A stretch of DNA of 64,000 bases, taken from NCBI GenBank assembly GCA_019054805.1, contig JAHQIY010000003.1, positions 2,914,001-2,978,000 on the forward strand. The letters run 5' to 3'. The DNA is from Brachionus manjavacas (Eukaryota; Rotifera; Eurotatoria; Ploima; Brachionidae). Position numbers and translations under genes: made by a program. The notes beneath the pieces are model-generated. The model had not been told where the DNA came from, did no database searches, and saw only the letters and a program-made list of their open reading frames with translations. Shown in pieces: positions 17,137 through 48,460 of this stretch (positions within the stretch are counted from its first letter, which is position 1; each line of letters begins with the position of its first letter).

Positions 17137-17655
17137 ATGAAACTGATAAGTTTAGTTGTTTTAATTAAAATAATTGACGTTCTTGGCACAGACTACTCCA
17201 ATCTTACTGATATTGAAATATCAGCACAAAGTCGGTCGAAGCGCTCGGCCGTCTTTTACTCGAACCGCTTCACGCCTTCGAGTTGTCATAAAGTTGACTT
17301 TTACGTCAATTTTTATGAGCTTGGCTGGGACAAATGGATAATTTATCCAAAAGTTTTTAATGCGCATATTTGCGCTGGAGGCTGCGGACTACCCAAAATA
17401 ATGTCTTTTATGAACAACAGGCGCAAAAATAGAAAGCGATTGAGACATTTGCCAAAGTCTCTTGTAACCAGGCTGACAAATCATGCCCAAATTATGAGCA
17501 TTTTGGAATACAGGTATCCAAATGTAAATCAACAAATGACAAAGTGTGTGCCAACTCGACTAAAGCCTTTGACTGTAATTTATTTAAATGAAATTGGTAG
17601 AATTATGACCAAGCAATATCAAGACATGGTTGTAGATGAATGTGGATGCAGATAG
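17137..17655 (+). CDS. BMP/TGF-beta superfamily ligand with minimal propeptide
   Basis: The 172-codon ORF starts with a hydrophobic signal peptide (residues 1-17). A propeptide of only about 16 residues follows, then a furin site (SRSKRS, about 32-37) and a cystine-knot domain. The knot shows NFYELGWDKWIIYP, the AHICAGGCGLP core, a CVPT motif and the ending QDMVVDECGCR, all typical of the BMP branch. Only six knot cysteines are present: the usual CCVPT is KCVPT, so the cysteine forming the interchain disulfide is replaced by Lys. GDF9, BMP15 and GDF3 lack the same residue. A basic insert (NNRRKNRKRLR) could bind heparan sulfate. AATAAA follows the stop. An upstream exon carrying a normal propeptide cannot be excluded, but the ATG plus signal peptide is good. 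Confidence 0.88.
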   Translation: MKLISLVVLIKIIDVLGTDYSNLTDIEISAQSRSKRSAVFYSNRFTPSSCHKVDFYVNFYELGWDKWIIYPKVFNAHICAGGCGLPKIMSFMNNRRKNRKRLRHLPKSLVTRLTNHAQIMSILEYRYPNVNQQMTKCVPTRLKPLTVIYLNEIGRIMTKQYQDMVVDECGCR

Positions 17656-19095: not shown

Positions 19096-19978
19096 TTAAT
19101 TTATCTCGCACACATAACCATAGGAGTTTTTATTTTCAACATACGTCAAGCAATATCCGTCAAATATAAGAATATATGTGATTGTATCATTTAAATCAGG
19201 CTTCACTATTCAAAAAATAATTGATTAGTCCCAAATTTTATAAATTTTAGTTCAATCTATCTCTTTTTTATTTATTATATAATCTGTCAATTAAAATGAC
19301 CATTTCAAGAATTAATAACTAGTTCTAATAAAAAAGTTTTTTTTTTTTAATTTTTAAATCCAAATTTTTTTTTAAATTAGTCTTTTAATTTCTGGTCAAT
19401 CGATATTTGATTAAGACAGGTTATTAAATAAGAACAGAGTAGATTTGATTTTTTTTTTACCATCGCAATAAAAAAGATCTCGAACTAAAATATCATTATT
19501 GTAAATCCATGTATAATTATAAGGTGGTTCAATTATACTACCGACCTAGTTTAAAATTTTAATAAAAAATGGGCAACATTTTCAAAAATAATTTACTATA
19601 AACTTGAAATTTTGAACCGAAAACTGGGTCTTGATCATGTTCATTTCCATAATATTTCTAATGGTGATTAGATTGGCAGACTCTTGCTGGCAGTCACTCT
19701 GAGCATCATTGTAATCAGCATGAATGGTTTTCAAAGTCTTGTAACATCGGTTTGTAACTCGATTCGAGCTATTGAAGACACCATATCCATATCCTGTTTT
19801 GTAGCCTGTTGGGCATGGTACACAACTTTGATTGCTAGCTGACCAGTAACTTTGAGAATCATTAATAAAAAGTGAAAAGCTAAAGTCTGTAAAGTTCTTA
19901 CACTTGTTCGCCATCATCAGGATCCGAGTCAAAATTTCTACACTGACAAGTATTGGAAATGCATTTAAGAGGCCTTGC
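19096..19978 (-). CDS. C-type lectin-like domain protein (three exons seen, 5' end incomplete)
   Basis: Minus-strand exons are 19597 to about 19978, 19461-19545 and 19096-19205. Introns of 51 bp (19546-19596) and 255 bp (19206-19460) have GT/AG ends and agree in phase (0, then 1). The joined domain reads CYKTL...ADYNDAQSDCQQESANLITI, then FKFIVG, YTWIYN, LFYC, and ends GYCLTYVENKNSYGYVCEIN with the stop. These match the CTLD framework cysteines and the WIGL-equivalent position (here KFIVG). The canonical EPN/QPD and WND sugar-binding motifs are not visible, so carbohydrate binding is doubtful. Upstream, a Cys-rich peptide (CISNTCQCRNFDSDPDDGEQ) would join in frame only if one base near 19906 were removed. 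It is therefore a slightly broken gene, or an unrecognised exon boundary is present. Confidence 0.72.
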
Positions 19979-20298: not shown

Positions 20299-20475
20299 CA
20301 GACACTTGTACCCATCTTTTCTCAGGTTTTTGGTGGGTATGGGTAAAACCCACCGAACCAATACCCACACCCAAAACCTGAATTTTTCGGGTAGCCATAC
20401 CCATACCCATACCCAAATACCCGAAATTTTCGGGTAACAATACCTATACCAACACATATAATCTGAAATTTTCGC
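20299..20475. repeat. Left TIR of hAT with CCCATAC array
   Basis: About 175 bp, inverted relative to 23955-24128. Includes three consecutive CCATAC units near 20396-20414 and palindromic CCCGAAATTTTCGGG near 20421-20435. Confidence 0.85.
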
Positions 20476-20757
20476 ATTATCTACTTAAACATACCTCAGA
20501 AACTTAAAATTAACGAGTTATAATACTTAAAATTGTCCCTTTTATATTAATAAAATTTTTAAAATAATAAAAAAAAAAGAGAATTTTGCAGTCAAATTTT
20601 ATCATATTCGATTACAAAAATCATAAATTTTAATTTTTAAATAATTTTAAATCCTTAAATAAGCAATCTATGTTCTAAATACTAGTTGAAATAAAATATA
20701 AAAGACAAAAATTAGCAAATTTATATATTAGAAAATAAGTATAGATCATTTTGAGGA

Positions 20758-23700
20758 ATGAATTTTAATAGTGTAACTGTTGAAGTCCTTGAGCACCAAG
20801 TCGATGACCTACCAGATGGTGTTAAGAAAAAGTTCCTAAAACAAAAAATGAACATAAAAACTTCATCAATAGAGTCTAGTAAAATTAAAGATGGAAAAAT
20901 AGTTAAAGAGGTGGCTAAAATAATTAAAACCAGTCTTTAATTGTTTTTTAAATATTTTTCTTTCTAGTTTGAATTGGGTGAAGTAATTGATGCTAAGGTT
21001 ACATTTTATTCAAAACCTTACTTGTTAAAATGCCAAATATTGGAGTTTCTTAATACTCAACAACAAATAACCAAACCCTGCTCAGAGGTACAAAAAAGAG
21101 CTAATAATGCCAGCAAAAGGAGACCAATTTCTATGATTTTGGAATCGCAAATAAACTCTAGTTTAAGCTCAAAAAAAGCAAATAATTCCGGACAGACACC
21201 GAATCTAAGAGAAAGAAGTAAAAAAACTTTAGTAGTACATGAGACAACTTCTGAGGAAGATGAAGAAATTGATAATGCCCAAAAAACTAAAAATTCTGAA
21301 CCGTGTTCCAGTTCCAGAATTATATCTGAACCAATAGATCCAGATTCATTGAATGCGGATAAGTACTATGCCAACATAAATTCGAAAAAAACACCTCACT
21401 TGTTTAATTACTCAAATGATGTCGTGGGTATTGACTTGGACGAAAATGAAGACGACGATGATGATCCAACAGTTCAGAAACTGATTCAAATGTCTACTCA
21501 AAATTCTTTTCCCAAAAAAACCTTTTATATAGGTAATATAAAAAAAGGTAAAATCGCCTATAACGCATTTTTTTAAATGTCCGAGGAAATTTACAACTAT
21601 GCCTGAAGACAAAAATCTAAAATTCCAGTGTAAAATATGCGAAAAAGACTTTTATGCGCCGTTCACACAAATAACAAATTTAAATAAGCACTTAAAAACG
21701 CATGAAACATTAATTGATTGGTTCACGCGTTACAAAAATATTGATAAAAAAGCAAATATTACTGAAATATCAGACGAAATGCTTAATTTTATTAAATGGC
21801 TAGTCACATCATACCAAAGTTTTGAGCAACTTAAACGTCCGTTTTTTTGTAGGATTGTCAACCCGGAATTAAAAATACCAAACTATCGGGAGTTAAGAGA
21901 AAAAATATTACCTGAGATATTAAACAAATTACATAAATCGATTGAAAATAAACTCAATATGGCTATTTCGATTTTTCTTATTATTGATATTTGGACTAGT
22001 GAGAGTCGATCAGATTTTATTGCATGTGGAGCTATAGTTACAAATTATTTACTCGAAAGAGAATTTATGATTATTGGTATAATACGAATGCCAGGTACAC
22101 ATAACGCTGAGAACATAAAATTAGCTCTAGAATCCATGATTAATAAATATAAATTTGACAAGAAAAAACTTAATGGTATAAAATCATTTAACATTTATTT
22201 TAAAAAAAATTAAATTTTTTAAAATCGATTTTTAGGGATTACATGCGATGAAGGGAGTTCTTTGATTCGGCTATTTAAACAGATTTTGTTTGACGAAGAC
22301 AAAAATTTATCTGAAAAGAATGAAATAATGAGTAAAAGTTTTAATAGAATTTAAATTTAAATAATTTAATTAATAATAGTTATTCCTCAAAAGGCTTATA
22401 TACTTACGTAATCGAAAGGGACGATAGTTTGTCTGATGAATTAGACTTGGAATATCCAATTTCCTCAACTGAGGCCAATTTAGAAAATAATAAAGATATA
22501 GATCATAGTCAAAATATTGTCACTAGCGAAGAGCTTCCGGGTATATTTACAATTGATTCTGAGGTAACTGAATCAATAAAAGATATTGAAAGCTTAAGAT
22601 TTAAGCACGTGATTAGCCTTGATGGAAAATTTTCAAATTATATTAGGCAAATAGCTCAAAATATAAATATAACTGAAAGTGTAGAGTACGCTGAAGATAA
22701 AGGTGAACCATTTATGGATTTTAATATTGAAATAGGTGACAATGTTATTCCTAGATATTCATGTGCTTGTCATAAGCTCAACATAGCCGTGAGACATGCT
22801 ATTTCAATACATGAACTATCAAAATTACTCAAAGAACTTAATACTTCCAAAAGTCATGTTAGAAATTCTATCAAGCTAAATGACATTTTCAGAGAAAAGA
22901 AATGCCGTTTATGGTTAGAAAATTTGACTCGTTGGTCTTCAGCATTTATGATGCCCGAATCCGTCAAAAGAGCGTACGACAAGGGAGCCTTTGACGAAAA
23001 TAATCTTGAATTAAAATGTCCAGTTCAATTGAAAACCATAGAAACATATATTCAGATTTTAAAACTAGCATACCTTTTCTCAATTGGACTTCAAAACAAT
23101 AATACCTCAATTGTAGGTGTACTTCCGGGTCTTTTTCAAATGCTGTATATCTGGGAAAAAATGGATCTGGAAGATGAAATTCAACAAAGGCTTTGAGCAC
23201 TTTTAATGGTTAGTGTAAGACATAAGTTTGATTTTGAATTAAATTCGCCGATATAAAAAGTAATAAATATAAAGATAATTTTGAAAAATTATTTGTTTGA
23301 ATCATTTTATAATTTTAAGGCTGCTCCTGTGTTGGCTGTTTCGAAAATCAGTCATTGGGCTAATAAAAAATTTTCTAGAAACATATTAAAAGATGCTTTA
23401 GCTTCGCTCAAACTAGTTTTTTTAAAGGTTTACAAAATAAATGAAGATAATAATGAAGAAATTAATGAAACTGATTTAAGTATTCTAAGTACAGATGGCG
23501 AATGTTTTTTTTCTCATATGTTTAAAGACGACGAAGAGAGAAACGAAAATAATAGAGAATCTGAGGTCTTCAAATTAGAAAGTGAGCTAGACCAAGAAAT
23601 TAGAAGCTTTGCTGAGTTACTAGACAAAACAAATTTAAGATCCTTTAATTCAACAAAAAAGTTTTGGAGAAAATATAAAGAAAAGTTTCCAAAACTTCTT

Positions 23701-23877
23701 AAACTGGCTATTTTTGTATTAAATATTGCTCCAACTAGCGCTTTTATTAGGCGCTTCTTTAGTATTTGCGGAATTATATCCAATAAAACAAATGGAAACA
23801 TGAAGGACAATTTATTTATTACAAGTTGCATGGTAAGAGCAAATATTAATATCCTTGAAGAGTTAAATGAATGTTAA
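20758..23877 (+). pseudogene. hAT transposase (multi-exon, two in-frame stops)
   Basis: Exon pieces join in phase: 20758 to about 20906; 20974-21532; 21609-22175; 22236 to about 22337; 22394-23877. Introns are short and AT-rich (for example 22176-22235, 60 bp). Features in order are a C2H2/BED-like finger (CKICEKDF...HLKTH, about 21625-21700) and the first catalytic Asp in IIDIWTSE. These are followed by ITCDEGSS (second acidic block, only after splicing), CACHKLNIAV, and LTRWSSAF. The dimerisation region is FWRKYKEKFPKLLKLAIFVL plus APTSAFIRRFF. The last exon is in one frame but carries TGA at 23194-23196 and a TAA near 23252, so the protein would be truncated before the dimerisation domain. 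Otherwise it is remarkably complete. Confidence 0.82.
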
Positions 23878-23954
23878 TGTCTATTAATATTTTAAATTTT
23901 TACTTTTTGAAAAAAAATATCTTAACAATACATAGTTTTTTTTTAACTTTAGCA

Positions 23955-24128
23955 AAAATTTCAGGTTATATGTGTTGGTATAGGTATTGTTACCCGAAAA
24001 TTTCGGGTATTTGGGTATGGGTATGGGTATGGCTACCCGAAAAATTCAGGTTATGGGTGTGGGTATTGGTTCGGTGGGTTTTACCCATACCCACCCAAAA
24101 CCTGAGAAAAGATGGGTACATGTGTCTG
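23955..24128. repeat. Right TIR of hAT with GGGTATG array
   Basis: Reverse complement of the left arm with a few differences. The GGGTATGGGTATGGGTAT run lies at about 24012-24031. Confidence 0.85.
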
Positions 24129-24780
24129 CTTACTGTTGTAAGTTACACATGAAAATTTTTTAATCAAATTCGAAAATTTATTTAATTTAAATCAAATTTA
24201 AATTAAAGCAACTTTTTCTTCCAATTTTAAATTTAGTTTTTTCGATTAATTTTATTTTCTACAAAATTAAAATAAAATTAAAATAAAATTTACGTGAAGA
24301 TGGCATGCATTGGTCATCGTAATCGCAATATTGATTATGACTTGATCTGGGTACTAAAAAAAATTTTAAAGTTGAAAAGGTATACTATATCAGAGAAAAT
24401 TAATGTAATATTAGAGTAAATTGAATTTAAAAAATAAAATAATTTTTTTTACAAAAAGTACAACAAGGAAAAGGGTCGGAGAAAAAAATTAAAGGATTTT
24501 AATTTTTTAATATTCTCAGCTTCTATCCATGATAAATTCGATTTTTTAATTAAAAATAACACTAGTCTGATCTTTCAAAAATAAAAATTACTAAACATTG
24601 CGAATTTTCATTCGTAATATTTAGTAATATTTACTAATAAAATTTATAAATCTTTAAAAATTAAAAAAATTAAGCTTTTAAAAAATCTTTTTTGGATCTA
24701 TTCTAATAGGAACTTTTTTGCAATTTTTCAATTTATGAAATTAAGTGAAAGTAACACTACAATCTAATAGGAAATCAAAT
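24129..24780. other. Intergenic AT-rich DNA
   Basis: No gene seen. Confidence 0.4.
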
Positions 24781-26651: not shown

Positions 26652-29600
26652 AGCAAGCTGAAAAATCCGAATCATAGTATCTATTCGAATCGCATCTGAA
26701 AAAAAAGTAAGAGTGTATTTTATTTTTTATTTGGTAAAAGCTTTACTGGCAACTGTTCGATATACAAAACAAGAAAGCATAGTCCTAATTAAAAAAAATA
26801 TTAATATTTTTTGATAATTGAGTTAGTTACTTGACAAGACTCATTTGAACCATCTGAAGTAGGTATACAATCGTTGGTGTAAGCTAATTTTTCCTCTAGG
26901 AAAAAAAACAAAATTTTGACTTTTATTTTTATCAAAATTTACCACAACGAAAATTGGAAATATTCTTTTAAAAAAAAAAAATTAAAATAATTGTAAGTTA
27001 ATTTTAAAATAAAATAACCCAATATTTGGTAAACGGACAAAGGCAAGTTTGATTTGAGTAACACACTAGACCAAAATAGTCTTGGCACTGTGAAGTTTCA
27101 TTGCATGAATCTCGGAAAGTTTTTCGATCTAGACATTGCTCAGATGCTGAGTCATAGTATTTTGTTGAGGGACACCTTTACAATAGATACTCTTTAATGA
27201 AATTTTAGATCGTAAAAATAAATTAAACAGTAAAAAGACAACAAAAATTCTACGATTAGAGTTTTAATTTAGGATTAGAGTATTCTGATGTGAAGAGTTA
27301 TAAACGACTTAAGAAAAAATCTTCTAGTCAAAAAATAGTACATGCTCAAGATCAAGGTGTTCCAAGTTTAATTCTGAAAGAATTCAAAGAAAAATATTCA
27401 TCGAGACACGGCTCTTAAAAACTCAAGAAATCTTAAAAGGGTTGATGGGTTCAGTAGAGTCTATGTTAACAAAGAGAGAGTTCGATAAGTGTTTGAGAGA
27501 GGAGGTAAAGAAAAAGAATGCCAACATTCAAAGAGATGGTATCGTTATAGAAGGGAGGCTTAATTACATCTTTATAGATGGTAAAAAGTAAATAGTAGAG
27601 AATTTTATTAAACAAGTCCACTTGAACAATGTGGATCGACTATTTTAAATTCGTGTACTATGAATGGTTATACCAATGTTGGGGGAAATGATTGTGCATC
27701 AGAACAATGATCTGATGCACCTTATGGAATAGAAGAATTACGTTGTTTTTATGCAAATCCAACATCAATTTGCAACAAATGGGATGAGTTTAACCCTTTC
27801 GTTAGTGAGCTTAAAGTTCATGAGTGAGGAGACATGGTTCAATGCAACACTATTAGTAATTTAACGAATTACAATATGTATCGTAGAGATATGAATGAAC
27901 CCGATTTGCAAACAGGTGGTGGAGTGGTTATTTATGTCAGAAATTATTTAATATCTTATGAAATAGACTGTTTTCCAGTAAAATCCGAACAAATGTAGTG
28001 GCAAACATAAACTTCTAAAAGGATGTATTTATCGTCCACCAATAAGACAATATCGAAGTGTCAGTATTGGAAAGGAAACAATCGATATTAATAATCCTAT
28101 CAAGTCAGAAAAATTGTTGATTGAGCGCAAGATATTCCCAAATATGCTGGTTTTTGGAGATTTCAATTATTCCTCAATCAAATGGGAAGCGAAAGGTGGA
28201 TCCCTAGATGGACTCGGATTCAAGGCAAGTGAAGAGTTTCTTGTGGTATTAAACGACTTTTTTTTGCATCAGTTCGTTATTGAGTTATTGAGCCAATTTT
28301 TGGTGAGAAGGTTCTAGATTTGGTCATTGCTGAAGATCCTGACATTTTTTATAATATTGAAATTTAACCACCAATTGGGTACACTGATAAAATGAGACTG
28401 CATTTTAACTTGATGATTGGAATAATTTTGGAAGAAGGAGTCACAGCTAATGCAAAAATGATTAAAAGGCTGAACTACATCGTCGGAAATTATGTTGACA
28501 TTAGAAAAGATTTTATTCCAGTAGACTGGTATGATCTTTTTAATGAAAAAAAATTTTGAAAAATTTTGTGAGCTTTTTCAAAACAAATATAATGAGATAA
28601 TACGTAGATAATAATCCTGATTGGTTTAAAAATCAGACATCAAGTTAGCATGTCAAATTAAGTTCAAGGCTTTTGCCAAATACCAAGGAGCTTCTACAAC
28701 GAACAAACATGAGCTGAAATCTAAATTCAACAAGCAGGCTAGAAAAGTTAAGGCGCTGGTTAAATTAGCTCATATGTGCTATGAAAAGTCAAAAGTCGAT
28801 AAGTGCAAATCGAATCCATATATATTATTCTCGTATGTGAATAGTAAGAAAGACGTTTAGTGTAAAATCAGATCGCTTACTGACAAACTGGGAAACGGCA
28901 ATGACATCGCAAAATGTCTAAATGATCATTTTTTCAGTTCATTTAAAGCAAAGGAGTTTGTAAATAGGGTTCCCTTAGAGAGCTGAAATAGAGTGCATAT
29001 TAAATCCGGATTTAGCTTACAGTCAAGCTGTTATTAATAGAGACTTGACAAAAACAAATCAATAGGTACCGATTGCATTCATCCATATGTACTTAGTGAA
29101 TGTAGTGATGTATTTTGTGAACCGTTATCTTTAATGTTCAAATTATCGTACGAGTCCAGTATGATGCTAGCATGTTGGAAAAGAGCAAATGTTACTCCAG
29201 TCTACAAAAAGAAAGGTAGTAAAACAAATCCAGAAATCTACCGCCCAATATCGCTATTATCGGTTCTAATTAAAAAAAATTGAAAAGCAAATAGGATATT
29301 TAATGAAGGTATTTATTGGAACACAATTTACTGTCGGTGCATCAGAATCTGTATAACTAGCTTGCTAGAAACTCTAGATATCATTGCTGAGGCATTGAAT
29401 AGAGGATTCAGTGCTGTGGTAGTATTCTTAGATTTTGCGAAGGCATTTGATTTCGTCTCGCATAAGTTACTTAAGATCAAGTTAAAGAGTTATGGATTTA
29501 CGGGTAAGCTTTTGGGGTGGCTAGAAAATTTTCTTCAAGATAAAAAACAGAGAGTAGTGATAGGTCAGTATGAATCTGATTGGGTTGATGTGCTAAGTGG

Positions 29601-32600
29601 CGTTCCACAAGGTTCAATCCTTGGTCCTTTACTTTTTTTGATCTTCAAAAAAGATTTTCCCAGAGATAGTAAGTCATTTTTGAAAGCTGTTTACGGATGA
29701 CAGTAAATTGATTAGTGTCTTTAGAAATACTGTTGATCAAATGCTAATTCAAGATGACATTGACAAGATGTTTGAGTGAAAACTTCCTATCAAACCGAGT
29801 AGTGAACAAATGGAATGTGCTGCCACGCCAGTTGCAAGTTCGATTAACTAGTTCAAAAACAGACTGTATAATTTTGGTAGAAATAATAAAAAATGAAAAG
29901 TCTACAATAGCGGGACTACTTTAGTCTTCTTGCTTTGTCATTTTGGATTAACTAAATTGGCCGTAGAATATAAACTACTATTATTATCATTATTATTACT
30001 TTTAAAAATAAAAAATTAATTCAATTTATAATTATAATAATAATATAATCATTGTTATAATCATTTAAAATAGAACTGAACTACGAAACGGTAAGACTTG
30101 AAAAAATAATTTCAGTCCATTTCCAGAATAAAATGATAGATTAAAGAATTTAGATTTAAATATTGTCGAAATTTTTTTAAAAATACTTTCTAAACCCTAT
30201 TTTCTTTTTATTTTTTTTATTAACTTCCTCTATTTCTTCAACTATTTTCAGATTACCTGCATGTCCATGAATTGGTAGTAAACGGAATAGCCAGACAAAC
30301 TAGTGAATAGGGAAAGTAATCCGCACATTGGGAGTTATTCATTGTAACTGTTTCATAAATGCAACTATCTCCATATAGAAGTTTAGGAACTTAATAAAAA
30401 AAATAAAAATTTAAAATTAAATATATTTAAATTATTTACCACATTCAATTGAATTCCAGTATTTATCCTCACTATTGCATCTTAGTCAATTTTTCTCTAT
30501 TAAAATTTTTTTTTTTAAAGAAAAACAAAATTTACAGGCAAACTGAATAATTACAAAGCAAATTTTTACTCTGTAAACATGGCTCTTGACCCACTGAAGA
30601 ATCACAGCTTTCTCCAAATGACAATTTTATAGCTTTAAGTTTATTTGAAAAATTTGATAGCAATTTATTTCATTTTAAATTTTACAGCATCTTGATCCAT
30701 TCTTTTATTTAAATTAAATCAAAACTTAAAACAAGATTTAACTTCAAAATTACCCAGTAATCACTTGACGGACATCTTTGATTTCAAAATAAAAATTATT
30801 TTTAATATTTTTTTTTTTTCTAATAATACTCGCAAGATGATAAACATTCTAGTCCAAGATAGTCTTGACATTCAAATGTTTGGTTACAATTTGAATTAAA
30901 CTCAAGTTTAGGCACTTGGTAAAAAATATAAAAAACCAGCAACAACAATAAAAATTAATACTGCAAATTGAGGCTGTAGAGTTCCAAAATTTATCAGGAT
31001 CACAACTAAATTTTAAGATTAAAAAAATTTATTTTTGCTCAGAAAAAAGTTATTACAGACACATTAGATTATTTGTATCACATGATAAAAGCCTTGTGGT
31101 ATCACATTGAATATCTTGAATGCAAGATGACCCATTCATAAATTTTAAAACTTAAAATAAAAAAAAATTATTTATTAGATAAACAATTCTAAGTTATGAA
31201 AAAATTTTATAAATCAAAAATTCCGTGAAAGACATTCAAAAAAAGGTTTTTTAAAAATTGTTTTGTATTTTTATCTTTTTAAAAAATTTTAGCTATAGTT
31301 ACCACAAATTTCGTAGTTCCAAAAATGAGTCTCGGGACATCTAAGGAAAAATTATCAAAAAATGCTGAAGAGATTGAATAATTTTACAAGCATTGGTTTA
31401 GTGTATCATTACATGTCAAATGCAAAGTTGAATCACATTCATCAGTTGAATTACAAAACAGACCATAGCTGGTAAAGTACTCTGAATAATTTAAATAATT
31501 TTTTTTTTTGAATGTTAAGAACCAAGAACTTACTACAATTTATTCCATCATGATATTGCTCTAAAGGACACTCGCACAAATCACTAATGCAACTTAGACC
31601 TTGGTTCTCATTGCATGGAGAATTATTATTACAACTTTCATTTAGATTTTTTTTGTTTTCTTCAAAAAGAAAGATGAAAAATAAAAAAAATTGGTTTCTT
31701 TAATTCTACGGCATTTGGTTCCATCCCAATAGAAGTCCGAACAACAGAGACATTTTTTTGAGCCATGAACTGAAAGACATTGCAGCCCCAAATCAAAGCG
31801 ACACTGATTATCATTTTCACAATCGGTGCCGTTTAAAAATTTCTGAGTGCAATTGTCATGAACATTAGACCAATATCTGGTGTAGTCGCAATCACACTTA
31901 TAGACTGTATCACCATTAAGAACGCAATTTAAAAGTTTAGTTTCATCGCAGCCTAATTCAATTGAGCAAGAATCCAAATAGGAACCTTTGGTAACACAAT
32001 TGTTACCATTCCAAAATTTTGGATACACACAAGTGCATATGGATTCTTTGCACTCTAAATTGGAGTTTATTTTGCATTGAGAGGCATCAGTGCATCCAAA
32101 TTGATTATAATCAATCTTTAATTCTATTTCGAGTTAATTGAGTAATAATTTAAAATAAAAAATAGCAAGATTTAGTACGAGAACACTTTTTAACAAACTA
32201 ATTGATAATATTTGGGTATTGTACCATTCGTGGACAATCGTCAATGGAAATTGATAATGCATGATTCATGGACAATTTTTCGACTGTGATAATTAATAAA
32301 TTTATATTATCATTAATATTATTTATTTCAAATATAAAACGTCAAGGCGATGCAAAAAAAAAGTTTAAAAATTAAAAAATAGATTAAATTATAATAATAA
32401 AAGCCAATTTTAGTATTATTGAAAGTAAATAATCAATTAATTGTCTAAACCCTTTTAAAAATTCAGTGTTAAGTATAAAACTTGTTTGACAATCGAACAA
32501 TAATATTGTTTATTAATAATCAATAGATAAATCAATTTAAATTGACAATTGTCCAAGGTTGGCACAAGACCCTAAATTTTTTACTAAATTTAATAAAATG

Positions 32601-35600
32601 AAACATTGAAATACCTAACCATCGGAAGATTTTTCAAAAGAAAAAATTGTGATAAATTAAATTATTAACGTTTGTTTACTTTTTGTAAAATTTAAATTTT
32701 TAATATAAATAATAAAATAAAAAAAAATCTTTGTGGGATAAAGATTCTAACTTTGCCAATTAACTCTGGATTAGACATTATAAATTAGTTATTTGACTTT
32801 TTTTTGAATTTTCAAAATGCCTGTTCCATTTTTGTAACTCTTTAAACAGTGCCAAAAACGTCTCATTGATTTATTCGAAGGCCCTGAATCTAAAAACTTT
32901 TCTCTTGATTCTGCTAATAGCTCATCAATTTGCTTATTTTTAAAATTGTCTAACTGTTGTGAAGAACTACTAGATGTAAGCAAATTCAACTCAGATAGAA
33001 ACAGATCCATTTTACTAAAAGAGATGAAACTGCCTTTATATTTTTTAAATTTTCTTTAATTTTAAATTGACCTTTAAAACCTTATAAATCATGACACTAA
33101 TCCAACGTTTAGTAGTTTTAGTTGATTTATAGGGTTTCACAGGTGTTAGACTTCGCATTTCAAGCCAAAAATTAGAAACTCAGATAGCACTTTAGTTTTG
33201 AATTTCTGAAAATTAAAAAGAAAAAGTTTATCATTTTCCAAGCATTGTAAAATTGACAGTGACAAAGACAAAGACACAGCTGAAGTAATTGACGAAAATG
33301 ATGATAAAAAAATTGAACCCAAAAAACTTATTTTAAGACAAAAATTTTTAGATATGATAAAACAATAGCCTTTAGAACCTTAAGTTTCTCTTTCAATAAT
33401 TTCATTATAAGGTTCCTTTTTTTGGCAAATATGTTTTTTTTTGAAAAGAATACTTTAAAAAATAGTTGGTTAATTCTATTCAAACAGGTCTAGCCTTCGT
33501 GACACCAGAATAAAAAAAGATATATCTACTTAATTAATAGGGGAAAAACTCCAAATTGATTTAAAAATTGAAATTTCATTTAAATCAATTGAAGTAACAT
33601 GTGAAGAACAATTTATGGTTTAAATGCAAAAAAAAAACCCTAAGCTAATTTATAGTTCTATGAATAAAAGAGAGAATTTAACGATAGTAAAAGCGCACTC
33701 AAAATACAAGAACAATTAATTATGGACCGAAATGGTATTGCCAATCATTTAAACGAGTACTTAAAGTTGGTTTTTACGAAGGAAAATCCTTCAGAAGAAC
33801 AAGAGTTGCCACCTCGAACCGACAAAACATTCCAGTTAAACCCTTTTACAATTTGCTACCCGTTGAATATCGCAAAATATATAAATAAGCTAAATGAAAA
33901 CATATCGCCTGGACTGGACTAAATCTTCAGGTCAGTACTCAAAAATTGTTCAGCTTCATTATCCGTACCATTATCTAAATTTTTCACTAAATCATTTGCT
34001 GGGGTGTTCTTCCGAACCGCAAATGTGCCACCTTTGCATAAGAGTAGCTCAAAGGTAGAGGTTACCAATAATAGGCCAGTTTCTCTGACATCTATTGTTG
34101 GTAAAATAATGGAAAGAATTGTGAGAGATGAACTTTTAGTTTTTATAGTTGTAAATAAATTAATAAGCGAAAAACAGCATGGGTTTATGCCAAACAAATC
34201 ATGCAACACTAATTGTGAGATGTAAAAAGGTAACTAAATTGATGTTTTGTATACTGATTTTTCCAAAGCCTTTGTAAAGTATCACATAAAAAAATATTAG
34301 CCAAGTTAAAAGCTTACGGTAATATTTGATTTATGAGATGATTTTATCCACTCAAGTTGGTGAGCCTCTTGAGTGGATAAAATCATTTCAAATAGGCAGA
34401 AAACAGAAAATTGTCATTTGTAACATATCGTCAGAGATGGTTGAAGTTACATGTGAAGTTCTTCAAAGGTCGGTTCTCGGACCTATCCAATTTGTTTTGT
34501 ATATAAACGATATGTTAGATAATATTCGAAGTCAATGCCTGGGCTATGCAGATGATCTTTAATTATTGGAGTCATAAATAACAAAGCAGAGCAGATGTCA
34601 AAGGAATGATTGTATGAAAAATACTTTATTTAATGGAAAATACTTTATTGAATGAAGGAAAAAATGTTACGTTAATAGAAACACTGTTTAAAAAAATCTG
34701 GGTGTATTTGTATCTGATGACTTCAAATGGAATAAGCAATGCGGAAGCAGCGAAAGCAAATAGGGTTCTTAGACAAATCAAGAACCCATTTGTATCCCTA
34801 GATCAGGCTATGCTGAAACTTTTATTCACTTGTCTCGTAAGACCATATCTTGAAGAGTATGTGGAGTCCTGCAACAAAGTCCGACATATTAATTTTGGAA
34901 AGGGTGCAAAGAAGGGCAACAAAATTACTCAAATCGTTGAGGAACGTTTCACATGAAGATAGACTAAATACCTTGTGACTTACAAGTCTAAAAAGTCGTA
35001 GAACTAGAGGAGACCTCATTCAAATGTACAAAATAATCAATGGCTTTGAGAAAATTTTTCAATTCAGTTAAAAGTTTTGGCACTAAATTTAAGAAGTGAG
35101 AATAATATGAGGCTTACAAGAGAATTGACCAAACGCGGCTCATACAGCTACAATTTCGTTACAAATCGAGTAGTGTCAAAACATGTCACAGGACAGTGTC
35201 AGTTCTAAATCAATCAACAGTTTCAAATCAAGGATAGACAATGAATTGCTTGGCAATGGACAAAAAAAGAGAAGAAAGACTGTCAAAGCCGTCCAGGGGC
35301 TAAATGCCGACGAGCGTTAGCATAGCATAGCTATACTACAGTCTCAATACTCCCACTTCTACTACTATCAAATCAATTTAATAAAAAGTTATCAATAGGA
35401 TAAAAAATACTCTCATAATAAAAAATCTTGTTAAATTAATTTTTGCATTTACCACAATAGTTTTTTTGCGAATCCCAATATCTTTCAATTGAACAAAGAC
35501 ACCTATTGATTCCGGTTTCATCATACATGCAAGCCAGACCATAGCCACATTCGTCTTCTTTTTCAAAAGTACATTGAGAAAAGAATGCTAGTTGTCTCAC

Positions 35601-36712
35601 TTAAATAAAATGATGAGCTGAATTAAATTTTCATTATAAAAATTTTATTAGAATGTGAAAATTACAAATTTCTATTTTGAATTTTAAAAAATATTTTAAA
35701 ATTGACCTTAAAGACAACGATGGTATTTTTGATACAGTCTTTTCTAAATACAATTAAAGTGCTTTTCAATAATTATTAATTTTTTAGACTAATTCAATTA
35801 ATAGATAAAAAATTAAACAAAATTTCCACATAAAAATTTTTGGAAATCAAAAATTTAAGTTTAAACGAAATTTTGCCCAAAATCGTTCATATGATAATTC
35901 TACTAATGCTCGGATTTGTGATTTTCCAAAATTTTATACAAAAATTAATAAGCATTATAAGTAAAAAAAAATTGCCATTACTTCATAGAAAAGTTTCCTT
36001 GCAAGTACCTTTGATCAAATTTAAAAACAAAAAGGATATTGTTTCAAAGGATAACCAAATAATAACAATTTTTGTGTAAAATGTAGTGAAATTTTTTAAT
36101 ATTTTTAAACATTCATTTAAATTAAAAAAAATTTTACCACATGTTGTTTTAAAATACATTCCACTTGGGCATTTACATCTATTTTCAGAACATACTAAAT
36201 ACTCATCAGGTGAGCATTCATCAGTAAATTTGCAAGAATCATCATATTGTTTAAAAACTTAAAAAAAAATTTTAAATCAATCAATTAATTAATCAATAGA
36301 CATACTTGAAGTGTTTATCCATAAAAATATGCCGAATCCGATAGCGATCAATGAAAGAAAAGCTACCAAATTTACAATGACAATTGATGCTTTAGGTCCA
36401 AGCAAAAATAATTTTCTAAAGACACTGATTTTTTTCGGTTGCTGAGAAACAATGTCATACTTAAAAGAATTAATTAATTTATTGAATTGTGCTTCTTTTA
36501 GAAGAAGTAAATTTAAAAAAGAATTTTGAAAATAAAGAAAAAAATGTTAGTTAATATTTGTATAAAAATTTAGAATTAAAAAAGAATTAATAAAGATGCT
36601 GTTTAAAACATATAAGATTAATTACTTGAAAGATATTGGTTTTTTTTTTGGTATTTTCGGAAAGCTTCAATACAGCTTCAAAAAATTTGCCTTTAATCTT
36701 GGCATCTGTCAT
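26652..36712 (-). CDS. Type II membrane protein with about 13 EB/EGF-like cysteine modules (at least 21 exons)
   Basis: Exons (minus strand, 5' to 3'): 36626-36712, 36306-36459, 36138-36257, 35453-35599, 31710-32123, 31534-31659, 31388-31481, 31303-31340, 31057-31150, 30962-31005, 30830-30914, 30754-30775, 30686-30701, 30536-30632, 30440-30480, 30257-30389, 27019-27175, 26943-26964, 26831-26895, 26747-26784, 26652-26695. All have GT/AG borders and every phase agrees, giving about 679 codons. The N-terminus (MTDAKIKGKFFEAVLKLSEN) has no signal peptide. Exon 2 holds one TM helix (IVIVNLVAFLSLIAIGFGIF), so the modules should face outward. Each module reads roughly C-x6-C-x7-C-x8-C-x-C-x5-YW-x5-C, like Pfam EB. 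The function is unknown; adhesion or recognition is a guess. The 3' end is unresolved. Confidence 0.8.
26943..26964 (-). CDS. EB-module gene, 22-nt microexon
   Basis: Flanked by AG and GTAAAT. It encodes NISNFRC plus one base. It occupies the same place in its module as the 16-nt microexon: after ...KYW, phase 0 in and phase 1 out. Confidence 0.68.
27250..29985 (+). mobile_element. CR1-like non-LTR retrotransposon, decayed, within a host intron
   Basis: Order on the plus strand: ORF-like text from about 27420 (EVKKKNANIQRDGIVIEGRL); endonuclease pieces GGGVVIYVRNYL (about 27920) and NMLVFGDFNYSSIKWE (about 28140); then reverse transcriptase. RT motifs are VVVFLDFAKAFD, YGFTGKLLGWLENFL and SGVPQGSILGPLLF (29362-29640), followed by a frameshifted TDDSK-like site. 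The 3' end carries GGCCGTAGAATATAAACTAC followed by a degenerate TTATTA tail (to about 29998). Many stops and frameshifts are present, so it is inactive. It lies in the intron between 27175 and 30257 of the EB-module gene, in the opposite orientation. Confidence 0.82.
30686..30701 (-). CDS. EB-module gene, 16-nt microexon
   Basis: AATGGATCAAGATGCT lies between AG and GTAAAA on the minus strand and encodes NGSRC. It supplies the last cysteine of a module whose previous exon ends in ...DYW (phase 0) and whose next exon needs one leading base. Without it the flanking exons are out of phase. Confidence 0.65.
31710..32123 (-). CDS. EB-module gene, 414-nt exon with three uninterrupted modules
   Basis: Contains three consecutive cysteine modules without an intron: GCTDASQCKINSNLECKE..., SCSIELGCDETKLLNC... 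and DCENDNQCRFDLGLQCLS.... Flanking introns are both phase 1. Neighbouring modules of the same gene are split by one or two introns. Confidence 0.85.
32214..32572. repeat. 359-bp MITE-like inverted-repeat element
   Basis: The left end GGGTATTGTACCATTCGTGG and the right end read inward, GGGTCTTGTGCCAACCTTGG, align over about 42 bp at roughly 75% identity. Both include GGACAAT-GTCAAT. No ORF. It lies in an intron of the EB-module gene. Its superfamily is uncertain and no clean target duplication was seen. Confidence 0.5.
32789..33010 (-). CDS. Small hypothetical ORF in intron
   Basis: The ORF is 73 codons, Ser/Leu-rich at the start and basic at the end (FWHCLKSYKNGTGILKIQKK). Its amino-acid balance is more protein-like than the AT-rich noise ORFs nearby. 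I do not recognise it; it may be a transposon fragment. Confidence 0.25.
   Translation of the reverse strand: MDLFLSELNLLTSSSSSQQLDNFKNKQIDELLAESREKFLDSGPSNKSMRRFWHCLKSYKNGTGILKIQKKVK
33715..35370 (+). mobile_element. Decayed CR1-like retrotransposon (RT) in a host intron
   Basis: Successive plus-strand pieces cover most of a reverse transcriptase. They are a pre-RT region with LNEYLKLVFTKENPS and NKLNENISPGLD, then NNRPVSLTSIVGKIMERIV with KQHGFMPNKSC. A block TDFSKAF (frameshifted, about 34255) and EPLEWIKSFQIGRKQKIV with LGPIQFVLYINDML and YADDL (to 34560) follow. The C-terminal RRTRGDLIQMYKIINGFEK lies near 35000. The 3' end has AAGCCGTCCAGGGGCTAAATG and a CTACTACTATC tail (35286-35370). 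At least five frame breaks. It sits antisense in the intron between 32123 and 35453 of the EB-module gene. Confidence 0.8.
36306..36459 (-). CDS. EB-module gene, transmembrane exon
   Basis: This exon gives YDIVSQQPKKISVFRKLFLL and then the hydrophobic helix ending GIFLWINTS. Basic residues precede the helix, supporting a cytoplasmic N-terminus. The exon enters in phase 0 and leaves in phase 1. Confidence 0.8.
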
Positions 36713-41982: not shown

Positions 41983-42447
41983 TCAAGATTCGAGAACATA
42001 TTTGTCATAAGCATAATCAACTAACTCATCTAAAATGATATCATCGCTTAGCAAGCCATCAAGTATTTCATCATCATGTTTTGTGTTTTTTATAATTGAC
42101 TCGACAAGCATGCCCGTCAACTTTGGTGCAATGTGTCCATAGCGGCCAAGTGCTATAGGATAAACAGCTTCGGCAATAAGCTCTTTTTTCTCACCGTCCT
42201 TGGTCAACACTTGCTCTTCTTGCTCAAGCTCTATTTCGATTTTTCTATTCAATATTTCTTTTTTGTTCATTTCGACCATTGCCTTGGTAGCTTTTTCCCT
42301 GCTTTCGAATTTAATTAGCGCCGCTTTGCTGTCCTGGCCGCTGTCTGATAATTCGAGTACATTGAATGGCTTGTAGGGAAAAAAACATCCTTGCAGTATT
42401 TCAGTGCTGGTCTGCTTACTTAAATTTTTTACCAATAGAGAAGCCAT
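41983..42447 (-). CDS. Mini poly(A)-binding-like protein: one RRM plus C-terminal MLLE domain
   Basis: An intact, intronless 154-codon ORF. Residues about 4-75 fit an RNA recognition motif: SLLVKNLSKQ (RNP2-like), SKAALIKFESREKATKAM (RNP1 region, with few aromatic residues) and ILNRKIEIEL. After a short acidic linker, residues about 95-150 (YPIALGRYGHIAPKLTGMLV and downstream LLSDDIILDELVDYAYD) resemble the MLLE/PABC peptide-binding domain of PABPC and UBR5, with KLTGMLVE matching the KITGMLLE core. Conventional PABPs have four RRMs and over 600 residues, so this is highly reduced. It could bind PAM2-motif proteins on mRNA; that is inference. It starts 81 bp after the stop of the C2 gene on the same strand. 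Confidence 0.68.
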   Translation of the reverse strand: MASLLVKNLSKQTSTEILQGCFFPYKPFNVLELSDSGQDSKAALIKFESREKATKAMVEMNKKEILNRKIEIELEQEEQVLTKDGEKKELIAEAVYPIALGRYGHIAPKLTGMLVESIIKNTKHDDEILDGLLSDDIILDELVDYAYDKYVLES

Positions 42448-42528: not shown

Positions 42529-43122
42529 TTAATAATTTTTTATTTGAAATGTACATAAAATTGGTTGGTTGGGTTGGTGGAAAATATCGAACCAATTTTG
42601 ACTTGACATCTGTTTAAGCTGGCATTCAGCCGAGTCAAAGTGGATACTCTGATTTTTGATTATTCGCTGTAGGTGATGCTGAGTGTTTAGCTCTAGTTTA
42701 CCGATCACGTCATTTTTTTCCACTTTGTCCCAGTCCATGACCAAGAACACGAACTGAATCCTCGAGCTTATTTGATGTGATAAAACCGAGCCATTTTTGT
42801 CCTCCATTTCACTTGATTCGGGCTCAAAAGAAGCATTGTCCATCGGTTGACTCAACTGAAGAAGGTTGAGAATGTTGAACTCGAATTTTTGATCAAACAT
42901 TGGGTCTCTTGTTTCCATTACAATTTTTGTTTGCTTTTTGTCAACGCGCTGACCGCGGTAAATCATGTAAATTTTGATATAGGAGTTGGGAATTTTTGCA
43001 GAATCCAGAAAATACTTTGGCAATTGAAGACCGATTGCTTTTAATACATGGACGTGAATTGTTTTTGTCTTGTTGTTGTAACTCAGTGATAATTGTATCT
43101 GACCCAAATTGATATCTGAGGA
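42529..43122 (-). CDS. Synaptotagmin-like gene, C2B exon
   Basis: Starts SSDINLGQIQLSLSYNN after the acceptor at 43123-43131. It contains the polybasic strand and the loop DWDKVEKNDVIGKLEL, and ends ILCTFQIKNY. An acidic, Ser-rich insertion (about 25 residues after LLQLSQPMD) enlarges one loop. Confidence 0.8.
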   Translation of the reverse strand, partial: SSDINLGQIQLSLSYNNKTKTIHVHVLKAIGLQLPKYFLDSAKIPNSYIKIYMIYRGQRVDKKQTKIVMETRDPMFDQKFEFNILNLLQLSQPMDNASFEPESSEMEDKNGSVLSHQISSRIQFVFLVMDWDKVEKNDVIGKLELNTQHHLQRIIKNQSIHFDSAECQLKQMSSQNWFDIFHQPNQPILCTFQIKNY

Positions 43123-46100: not shown

Positions 46101-48460
46101 TCTAAATTAGCGACGTGTCACTGTAGTTAAAAAAGACTTAAAAATGTTTTTTTTAAATAATTTATTTTTTTTTTTTTTCTAGAACGAGAAAATTACTAAC
46201 ACTAAAAGAATAAATGAAACCGCTTTAGAAAAAAATGTCTCGAAACACCTTTGCTATGAGCTAAAACCATGCATCCATGCATCGATTAAATTTAATTTGA
46301 GAAATTTTCGCGGCATTAGTGATAATCAATTTAAAGAACTGAGACACAAGTTTATAAAAGAGCTTGCGATGTATCATTGGCATTAAGGTTTATTTTTTAA
46401 ATTGATTAAAATGAATCCACCTCATTACTTAACTAACTGGATTAGATCCTTTTTAGATAGTAGGACATTTTAGGTAAATGTGAATAACCACTTGAGCGAC
46501 GAATATCAAATAACTGCAGGTGTTCCTCAAGGCTCAGTAATTAGTTCTCTTTTATTTAGTATATTTATTGATGACATCCCCAAAAGTAACAAAACAAATA
46601 ATGAATACTCTCTGCTTTTCGCAGATGATCTAGTTACATTCTTCATTAATAACAAAGAGGGGAACCTAGAAAATAAGATAAATAAATACACAAACGATTT
46701 AGAACAATGACTCATTAAATGGAAAATGAACATATCAGTTGAAAAGTCGTGTTCAGTAGTCTTCTTAAGGTACAAAAAAGAGAGTGATAATCTAAACTTA
46801 AAAATTTATGGAAACAGAATAGTGGGCCAAAAAGAAATCAAGTTTCTTGGTATTAAATTTGATTCTAAGTTAAAATATGATACTCCTTCCAAAATGTTGC
46901 ATCACGAGGCTTTCAATAAACTTAAACTACTAACAGTCTTGAATCGGCGTTTTGAATTGAGTGAGAGATATGTTGGGACAGGACTGTGTCATTCTGTTCC
47001 ATTGGTTGTACATGTATCACATGTAACTCTCTTTTCAAAATATGTCTTTTTTACTTTATTTAAATTTTATTTTAGCTTATTTTACTTTATTTTTATAATT
47101 TATTCTGAAGGAGCTCTAGCTTGTTACAGAAAACAGATGAATAATAAAAAAAATTCTAAAGAGGAAGATGTACAATAGGCTAGAATGAAAAGGAAAATTG
47201 GTGACAATACAAGTTTAAGTTTTTGTTCTCATTGTCAAAACTAAATGTTTTTGTTAATAAAATTAAAAAATTAAAAAATGTTTTCTTTTTATTTTGTATG
47301 GGTCAAAATAGCTCCATTCTAGTCTCTAAAGTAACCTTTAATATCTTCAACGGATAAGGTTGAGTAGAAATTTATATTTTTTCACAAAAAATTATTAAGA
47401 TAAAAAACTGGGCGCAAAAAATAACCTGCTTCAAAATAAAAAAAAACAAACTTACTTTCGAGTCTACCAAGTCAATTTTCTTTGAGTAAATTTTATTAAT
47501 GGATTTTTGCGTATCAAAATTATCAGCCAAATACAAGTCATCTTTGGTGAACGTGTGAACACAAAGTCCAATAATCTGGTCACGTCCAAAAAGATTTGAA
47601 TTACAGACATTAAACACTAGTCTAAAACGAGGTGCACTCTCCACATAGTTAGCCAAACTGTCAAACAAATCGTTCAAACAATTGAACTCGAAAGTTTCTT
47701 CATAGACCGGATTCGACCGGTTTTTTATCAAACGAGTCTTGGCGCATAGCTTCTGGGCAACATTGGCATAAATGTCCCTATTAGGTTCCAAAAGCTCAAT
47801 CTTAATGTACACATTTAGATCAACATTGGACTGGAGCAAGGATATTGGCAATTTAACATTTTCCAGAGAGACTAGATCGATGGCCAATGATCGCCTATTT
47901 GGCTCTAATTGCAAAGAATAGTTCAAGATCATGTTGGGTGTGTGGTGCTGTGGCAAGTGGTCGTTGGACAATATGGTGGCCAGTGAGTTCAACGATGCAT
48001 ACGAAGCTGACGAGTTTCTTGATGACATGCGCCCAAATCGCTCCAAATCAATCGATTCACTTGGTTCACTTTTACTGAATTTTTTTTTTAAATCTTTTAT
48101 TTTTTGAATAAAATTTGTGGTTAGAGTTGTTTTGGCAAGTTCAGCGCCTGGTCTAAGCCGTGTATGGCTGTCTGAAGAAAAAGCTGATGACTTTTCCTCG
48201 CAAGTTCCGTAGCTTGAACACAAATTTTCTTCGTTCAATTTCGAGCATCGTTCTAAAAAAAAATGTCTCTAATTTAGAATTTTATTTTTTCGCTTCACAA
48301 GGCTTCTTCCGCCTTTTTCTATTCCTAATTGATCTCTCTTAGAAAATTTCAAAATTCCCTTGAATAGAACAACTATTTGTGATATTGTCAAGACATAATG
48401 CACAAAATAAAATAGTATTGCCAAAATTATGATTAGAGATTTTTTAAGAATTTTTTTCAA
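42529..48460 (-). CDS. Synaptotagmin-like protein: TM segment, C2A, C2B
   Basis: Exons on the minus strand: a probable first exon ending near 48295 (start ATG 48458-48460), with a TM helix (KSLIIILAILFYFVHYVLTI) and a basic stretch; 47456-48252, with a Ser-rich linker and the C2A domain; 42529-43122, with C2B. The intron 43123-47455 has a GTAAGT donor and TTCTAG acceptor and joins in phase 0 (VDSK|SSDINLGQ). The link from exon 1 to exon 2 is not certain: frames match, but the only in-phase option I see is a 30-nt intron. C2B keeps loop-3 acidic residues (MDWDKVEKND) and the basic RVDKKQTKI strand. C2A has NSN in place of the two loop-3 Asp, so it is probably Ca2+-independent. The likely role is membrane trafficking or exocytosis. 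Confidence 0.78.
43597..44074. mobile_element. 478-bp MITE, Tc1-like ends, within the synaptotagmin-like intron
   Basis: The ends CAGTATTGAT-TGACATGATG are inverted and continue TTTTTGGTAATTTTACG. TA precedes the left end; the right flank is TG, so the TA duplication has decayed. The interior is AT-rich with TTACGTAA palindromes, recalling the element at 40.7 kb. The family is related but distinct. Confidence 0.75.
45075..45300 (+). mobile_element. Pre-RT fragment of a non-LTR retrotransposon
   Basis: The frame reads NQEIVNHLVEYFWSVFSDNT and NFDGDSITFTINLF, like the linker between endonuclease and reverse transcriptase in CR1/jockey elements. It is likely the upstream part of the insertion ending at 47.16 kb. 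Confidence 0.45.
45301..46379. other. Intronic DNA with a partial hAT-MITE end
   Basis: At about 45507-45567 there is GACTT-repeat DNA ending CTTTTAAACAACTCTG, the right end of the MITE family seen at 25.58 kb, without a recognisable left end. A lone CGACGTGTCACTGTAG near 46110 resembles the GACATGTC element. Confidence 0.4.
46380..47160 (+). mobile_element. Jockey-like retrotransposon 3' half, decayed
   Basis: LTNWIRSFLDSRTF leads into GVPQGSVISSLLFSIFIDDI and YSLLFADDLVTFFI (46480-46710), then WKMNISVEKSCSVVFLRYKK and IKFLGIKFDSKLKYD (46726-46890). After about 47000 a deletion joins the frame to a T-rich run and the TTCTGAAGGAGCTCTAGC module with an AATAATAAAA tail (47099-47155). This copy links that module to an RT-bearing element. 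It lies antisense in the intron of the synaptotagmin-like gene. Confidence 0.8.
47099..47155 (+). mobile_element. Retrotransposon 3'-end module (copy 3, attached to RT)
   Basis: TTATTCTGAAGGAGC, TCTAGCTTGTTACAG, then AAAACAGATGAATAATAAAAA. GAGCT and AGCTT/AGCTC can form a small stem. Confidence 0.75.
47456..48252 (-). CDS. Synaptotagmin-like gene, C2A exon
   Basis: Begins with ERCSKLNEENLCSSYG, followed by a Ser-rich linker. C2A spans from about ILNYSLQLEPNRRSLAIDLV to KIYSKKIDLVDSK. FNVCNSNLFGRDQIIGL corresponds to the Ca2+-binding loop 3 region but lacks its two Asp. Confidence 0.78.

Follow-up and report, generated by a model that had tools for sequence, protein, structure and literature searches.

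What does a long, membrane-anchored array of cysteine-rich modules carry at its far end, and where does the gene encoding it stop? The question is raised by a locus of the rotifer Brachionus manjavacas, lying in a stretch of 64,000 nucleotides (contig JAHQIY010000003.1 of assembly GCA_019054805.1, positions 2,914,001 to 2,978,000), here called the window, and positions below are those of the window. An earlier note on this DNA described a 21-exon gene running from 36712 to 26652, encoding a type II membrane protein with about 13 EB-like modules. The full gene model extends on the minus strand from 36712 to 19096 and comprises 26 exons encoding 873 amino acids, in phase to a TAA stop codon. The protein begins with a predicted cytoplasmic tail and a single transmembrane helix, continues with 14 EB modules of six cysteines each and ends at its C-terminus in a C-type lectin-like domain (CTLD). 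It very probably represents a family of type II membrane receptors that hold a CTLD on a long EB stalk. Numbered contigs, abbreviated C13, C7, C17 and so on, belong to the same genome as the window.

Extent and exon structure of the gene

The exon model was read directly from the minus strand of positions 17000-37500. Exons 1-21 stand as the earlier note gave them: all introns are of the GT/AG type, the 20 junctions are in phase, and the exons sum to 2038 nt, or 679.3 codons. Exon 1 (36626-36712) contains the start ATG and encodes residues 1-29 of the predicted cytoplasmic tail; the alignment with a paralogue on contig 13 begins at residue 4. The remaining tail and the transmembrane helix, at about residues 53-76, are found in exon 2 (36306-36459). 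EB modules 1 and 2 are encoded by exon 3 (36138-36257) and exon 4 (35453-35599), and modules 3, 4 and 5 by the single, uninterrupted exon 5 (31710-32123). Module 6 is found in exon 6 (31534-31659), while modules 7 and 8 are each split in two halves, encoded by exons 7 (31388-31481) and 8 (31303-31340), and by exons 9 (31057-31150) and 10 (30962-31005). Module 9 begins in exon 11 (30830-30914) and continues through exon 12 (30754-30775) and the microexon 13 (30686-30701), of 22 and 16 nt, which have equal lengths in the genes on contigs 13 and 7. The halves of module 10 are encoded by exons 14 (30536-30632) and 15 (30440-30480). Module 11 begins in exon 16 (30257-30389) and ends in exon 17 (27019-27175), where module 12 starts, to be completed in exon 18 (26943-26964). 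Exons 19 (26831-26895), 20 (26747-26784) and 21 (26652-26695) encode the beginning, middle and end of module 13. The count of about 13 modules thus holds for exons 1-21, while the total is 14, with the last module lying beyond the end first proposed.

The end at 26652 is not borne out, as exon 21 ends there at a splice donor (TGC T/GTAAGA, the slash marking the boundary) and five further exons, missed earlier, lead to 19096. Exon 22 (24294-24353, 60 nt) encodes the initial part of module 14 and exon 23 (19902-19977) its middle. Exon 24 (19597-19849) falls within the span of module 14 and is the first of three CTLD exons, followed by exon 25 (19461-19545) with the middle of the domain and exon 26 (19096-19205) with its end and the stop codon TAA. 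The donors of exons 23 and 24 (AGT/GTAAGA and ATA/GTAAAT) maintain the frame; an alternative splice choice for these two exons was rejected, as it produced stop codons. The frame running through the donor of exon 21 reaches a stop after 17 codons, so that a terminal exon near 26652, with the CTLD exons belonging to a separate downstream gene, is formally possible. This is hardly credible, however. The GTAAGA donor of exon 21 has phase 1 like the other introns between modules, and module 14 extends over exons 22-24 and requires exon 22. In the contig 13 gene, the five terminal exons occur in the identical order, exons 21-26 being consecutive and separated by introns of 51-61 bp. Intron 21 has 2.3 kb and intron 22 has 4.3 kb in the window, against 56 and 59 bp for their counterparts on contig 13. 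Because the contig 13 gene has the five extra exons with such short introns, the window gene is taken to span 36712-19096, and the end at 26652 was rejected.

Intron 22 contains a hAT-type DNA transposon (20299-24128, plus strand) that is not part of the gene product. It has terminal inverted repeats of 177 nt that are 97% complementary. Its plus-strand frames match Dimer_Tnp_hAT with 22.0 bits against a cut-off of 21.4, and zf-BED below the cut-off. By eye, retrotransposon-like remnants lie antisense to the gene in two other introns, at about 27300-29940 and 33500-35400, and one of them carries a reverse-transcriptase-like GVPQGS motif on the plus strand.

The EB array, the anchor and the terminal domain

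The 873-residue protein contains 91 cysteines and 21 N-glycosylation sequons. Each of modules 1-13 has six cysteines, with a seventh in module 5, and the usual spacing is C-x5-C-x7-C-x4..9-C-x-C-x9..12-C (the first spacing is 5 in nine of the 13). Twelve of the 14 modules are 40-49 residues long, the other two 55 and 59. The EB label given in the earlier note is confirmed by Pfam: the full protein matches EB (PF01683) in ten stretches with 64.2 bits (cut-off 24.3, E 1.2e-17). A module profile found 15 stretches in the window and none in 20 first-order Markov resamples, which exceeds chance. Because this profile was built from the window gene itself, it is the contig 13 paralogue that provides independent evidence. 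An AlphaFold2 model of exon 5 had low confidence (mean pLDDT 62.8, pTM 0.32) and was not used, and a search by sequence gave no solved relative (best E 0.46).

The paralogues on contigs 13 and 7 were modelled with a purpose-written spliced aligner, which in a self-test recovered the window protein unchanged from the window DNA. Guidance by the window protein biases such models towards agreement with it; the splice sites must still exist in the DNA. The contig 13 protein is identical to the window protein at 484 of 848 aligned residues (57%). Its gene has 26 exons of nearly equal length one for one, the 22-nt and 16-nt exons included, and shares all 25 intron positions and phases. The contig 7 gene was modelled with 22 exons at the first gap cost and 24 with a looser one, and has 20 of the 25 window intron positions in common. 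The cysteines are conserved at 90 of 91 positions on contig 13, although synonymous sites are saturated, and at 89 of 91 aligned positions on contig 7. Between the contig 13 and window genes, synonymous (pS) and nonsynonymous (pN) divergence are 0.81 and 0.25 in the EB part and 0.77 and 0.32 in the CTLD, while the dN/dS of the N-terminal head, the part with the transmembrane helix, is 0.24. Near-total conservation of the cysteines combined with freer change elsewhere fits a stalk, for which the fold would matter more than the surface. A tandem neighbour of the contig 13 gene, at about 874.9-863.4 kb, has a transmembrane head and an EB array in a rough model. It is identical to the contig 13 protein at 245 of 666 aligned residues and has a stop where the CTLD is expected to start.

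The single transmembrane helix proposed earlier is clear from the hydropathy, with a Kyte-Doolittle mean of 2.66 over residues 55-73 and at best 0.92 elsewhere. The predicted type II topology agrees with several features. The only hydrophobic segment is internal and follows 52 mostly polar residues, and all 21 sequons lie C-terminal of it, at residue 78 or beyond. Lysine and arginine outnumber aspartate and glutamate in the 15 residues before the helix in three of four family proteins (those of the window and of contigs 13 and 7). In the gene model, one internal anchor is thus combined with a C-terminal CTLD, as in type II C-type lectin receptors. The segment might instead be a late signal peptide, which would make the product a secreted or matrix EB-CTLD protein. 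Secreted Brachionus C-type lectins with one EGF-like domain are indeed described in a rotifer survey (PMC8878817). Secretion nevertheless seems improbable, given the 52 residues that precede the segment, a tail that is also long in the contig 13 and 7 models, and the position of 21 of 21 sequons after it. About 20-30 residues before the helix, the tail carries a motif seen by eye, [FY][QE]Y-x-[IV] (FQYDI, FEYQV, YQYDV; FEYKV in contig 17). It is present in the proteins of the window, C13, C7, the C13 neighbour and two contig 17 loci (C17a and C17b), not in the contig 3 protein C3e. The motif could be an adaptor contact site.

A genome search with the CTLD part of the window protein gave five matches. 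Three were the window's own exons; of the other two, one is a stretch of 85 residues with 59% identity on contig 13, the other a stretch of 72 residues with 44% identity on contig 7. The contig 13 CTLD is identical to that of the window at 66 of 137 aligned residues and scores 29.3 bits against Lectin_C (PF00059), above the cut-off of 22.6, the match spanning profile positions 4-106 of 107. Also the C17a CTLD passes this cut-off, with 31.1 bits. It is on homology to the contig 13 domain that the CTLD label of the window protein rests. Among solved structures, the best match of the window CTLD is PLA2R (E 2.9e-5, for the whole chain; no single stretch passes alone), followed by an avian IgY receptor (8.3e-5), LY75 (1.2e-4) and the mannose receptor (0.002). 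Type II receptors match more weakly: KLRF2 with E 0.005, DC-SIGN 0.17, CD69 0.24 and LOX-1 0.63.

Related genes in the genome and neighbours in the window

The genome contains many EB arrays. With Pfam EB, at least 22 matches were obtained at an E threshold of 0.001 and at least 124 at a threshold of 1, and the window gene accounts for three of the latter. Two of 14 control genomes also have matches at E up to 1, none of them above the cut-off. A corresponding search with Lectin_C gave 34 matches at E up to 0.01, which were considered only where they lie near EB matches. Because the CTLDs of the window, contig 13 and contig 7 genes are not among these 34, such genes are easily missed by a plain Lectin_C search. 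Among the CTLDs counted below, only that on contig 17 at 199 kb is found there. The Lectin_C match at C7:5498426 precedes the head of the contig 7 gene and is thus not downstream of it.

A second subfamily is found on contig 17. It shows the same order with few introns: an anchor (WIVYFSIPVMIFLIAFFTGALITM), EB modules and a CTLD above the cut-off. A search with the contig 17 head gave ten loci with the transmembrane part, the query locus included. Together with the window, C13, C7, the C13 neighbour and one contig 3 locus recognized by eye, this makes 15 heads. Left out of the count were six weaker matches that overlap these positions, four of them on contig 2 and two on contig 12, with 27-30% identity and, in two cases, stops. 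Eleven of the 15 are followed on their own strand by a CTLD: the window, C13, C7, C4 and C31, three on contig 17 (200, 731 and 671 kb) and three on contig 3 (3.33, 0.577 and 1.29 Mb). The downstream match of the 671 kb locus is weak (E 0.06). The domain order is based on gene models for the window, C13 and C7 and on direct reading for the contig 17 locus at 200 kb, while for the other seven loci it is deduced from the succession of matches on one strand, across distances of up to 21 kb. CTLD matches where no head was seen (contig 17 at 680, 687 and 689 kb, contig 3 at 3.357 Mb, and weak ones on contigs 12, 1 and 11) are outside the count of 11. The suggestion of a possibly lineage-specific receptor or adhesion family made in the earlier note is therefore upheld as far as a family with several loci in this genome is concerned; the role is weighed below.

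One CTLD profile was built from the window, C13, C17a, C31 and C4 domains, and its matches to these are circular. The test was consequently rerun with separate group profiles, all E-values of family profiles being calculated with the database size fixed at 1000. The contig 17 profiles match the CTLDs of C31 and of the contig 3 loci C3a and C3e (E 2e-5 to 1.5e-4), while no match exists in either direction between the CTLD profiles of the contig 17 group and the window group. There are at least two subfamilies of one design, for which a shared origin as whole genes is likely but is not claimed.

Several observations weigh against the proposal that these genes encode type II receptors with a lectin-like tip. 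The model and the domain order of the window gene were read from genomic DNA alone. Four of the 15 heads have no CTLD: two on contig 17 (618 and 719 kb) contain stop codons, the C13 neighbour has its stop where the domain should begin, and C3d, a head recognized by eye and seen in part, has a 30-residue CTLD trace (E 0.02). Head profiles hardly match across the two subfamilies (best E 0.03, for C7, otherwise 0.2-0.5 or nothing), and C17a has no excess of lysine and arginine before its helix. The window CTLD alone scores 19.0 bits against Lectin_C (E 0.0024), below the cut-off, and Lectin_C is not among the Pfam matches listed for the full 873-residue protein; because of this score, the domain is called C-type lectin-like only. 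The Lectin_C cut-off was passed by two (C17a and C13) of the six family tails scanned; the C17b tail, given as 92 residues, has 16.2 bits, and those of C7, C31 and C3e gave no match. The calcium- and sugar-binding site of C-type lectins is marked by the motif EPN or QPD, and by WND. At the canonical column the window has KPD, while C13 has QPN and C7 EPD; WND is absent from the window CTLD. Because of the KPD, the capacity of this domain to bind sugar may have been lost.

On contig 3 (C3:3333001-3363000), about 2.6 kb of an EB-CTLD gene is duplicated, the copies being 98.7% identical and separated by 14 kb. Their CTLDs are identical, so that positive selection on this domain, which was considered, is unmeasurable in these recent copies and was set aside. 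The same contig has a one-strand cluster of many Lectin_C matches at C3:5060550-5075246, perhaps one or several multi-CTLD genes of the mannose-receptor-like kind.

The window also contains other open reading frames. One of 172 codons on the plus strand (17137-17655) encodes a TGF-beta family ligand (PF00019, 9.2e-26, residues 49-171) in which very little precedes the domain; the frame runs opposite to the lectin gene and lies 1.4 kb past its 3' end. The other frames are on the minus strand. A one-piece frame of 570 codons (2987-4699) encodes a sodium:solute symporter (SSF, 5.7e-38). A short frame at 41986-42447 contains an RNA recognition motif (6.2e-8) and an MLLE match (3.1e-5, below the cut-off), and looks like a poly(A)-binding protein in reduced form, or else like a single exon or a retrocopy of such a gene. 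Two frames with C2 domains (42532-43107 and 47375-48238) are possibly exons of one protein.

Possible roles of a stalked lectin-like receptor

The most likely function of the window protein is that of a cell-surface recognition or adhesion receptor. About 52 residues would remain in the cytoplasm and one signal-anchor helix would cross the membrane, so that with type II insertion the EB array, and beyond it the CTLD, would lie outside the cell. Because the protein has a CTLD at its C-terminus, the EB array is seen as a stalk and not as the business end. The 14 disulphide-rich modules, being mostly 40-49 residues long, would then be expected to behave like a rod or tether. With 2.5-3 nm assumed for each of the 14 modules, the CTLD would be held some tens of nanometres off the membrane. 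At the tip it would be the natural part to bind a ligand, glycan or protein, and the tail might pass the contact on or anchor the receptor.

Known proteins share parts of this design. Vertebrate type II C-type lectin receptors, such as DC-SIGN, the asialoglycoprotein receptor and receptors of natural killer cells like CD69, also have an N-terminal tail, one signal-anchor helix and a single C-terminal CTLD. Their stalks are short or coiled-coil, whereas that of the window protein consists of 14 EB modules. The mannose receptor, PLA2R and LY75 are likewise membrane proteins with CTLDs, and give the best solved-structure matches of the window domain. They are, however, type I proteins with many CTLDs, ricin-type and fibronectin II domains, an architecture different from that of the EB-stalked family, while the window protein is predicted to be type II and has one C-terminal CTLD. 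Selectins, which are type I, also join a CTLD, in their case N-terminal, to an EGF-like domain and a stalk made of repeats, in mirror-image order compared with the window protein. Invertebrate EB-array proteins share the tandem modules above the Pfam cut-off (PF01683), and the window protein adds the terminal CTLD and the type II anchor. The closest rotifer counterparts are the secreted Brachionus and Proales lectins, which have a cysteine-rich module directly before the CTLD, but which carry a signal peptide and a single EGF-like domain and lack a transmembrane segment (PMC8878817). That survey admitted no protein with a transmembrane region and, except for galectins, none that lacks a signal peptide; it mentions by way of a thesis one membrane C-type lectin linked to male mate recognition (PMC8878817). 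A search of the open literature, with subscription papers and preprints outside its scope, gave no paper titled for the combination of EB modules and a C-type lectin domain.

Nothing here decides between an immune or feeding role, adhesion and mate recognition. It is a real if tentative possibility that the family serves as innate immune or feeding receptors binding surface glycans of microbes or algae. Microbial pattern recognition is the role usually proposed for invertebrate C-type lectins, as stated in the survey (PMC8878817), and the many loci and tandem copies would agree with it. The single recent pair of copies examined has identical CTLDs, however, and thus gives no sign of rapid diversification in the binding domain. 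A little less likely, and also tentative, is a structural protein of cell-cell or epidermal adhesion whose CTLD binds protein and senses no sugar. Divergence of the window CTLD at the canonical column, in a cysteine scaffold that is almost wholly kept, would suit such a role, but the CTLDs of C13 and C17a score above the Pfam cut-off, which argues that the domain is not decaying family-wide.

Mate recognition in Brachionus involves a surface glycoprotein on which the N-linked sugar matters, and the male receptor was open in 2009 (PMC2746195). According to the same paper, a gene from a C-type lectin family was then being studied as the possible receptor of males (Snell et al., 2009; PMC2746195). 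That one member of the present family is the male receptor for the female surface glycoprotein is nevertheless very improbable. Mate-recognition genes are found in this genome. The forward primer published for MMR-B of Brachionus manjavacas, from Table 1 of that paper (PMC2746195), has one exact match, at C7:5027191, and two further matches on contig 7 with one mismatch each (reversed control: 0 matches), while the published MAN primer, from the same paper, has no match in the genome with up to two mismatches. The MMR-B result supports a rotifer of the Brachionus plicatilis group. The primer matches lie at C7:5.018-5.124 Mb, and the nearest complete family member, at C7:5.50 Mb, is at least about 0.38 Mb away. 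Closer by, at a distance of about 50 kb, are EB matches at C7:5.172-5.184 Mb, where the 10 kb read contain no head or CTLD. A later candidate is furthermore mannose-receptor-like according to a thesis title cited in the survey (PMC8878817). It would thus be a long shot to propose that rotifer type II stalked lectin receptors serve contact recognition at the body surface with one of them as the male MMR-B receptor. Equally speculative is the corollary that they would have been hidden from lectin surveys by their anchor, their divergent CTLD and the many small exons between.

For the stalked receptor with a lectin-like tip, which is the preferred reading of the family, the locus illustrates how an initial reading may miss the functional end of a gene when its exons can be as small as 16 nt and one intron harbours a transposon. 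It would also add a stalked membrane lectin design, with subfamilies and tandem copies, to a genus that uses a surface glycoprotein in mate recognition.

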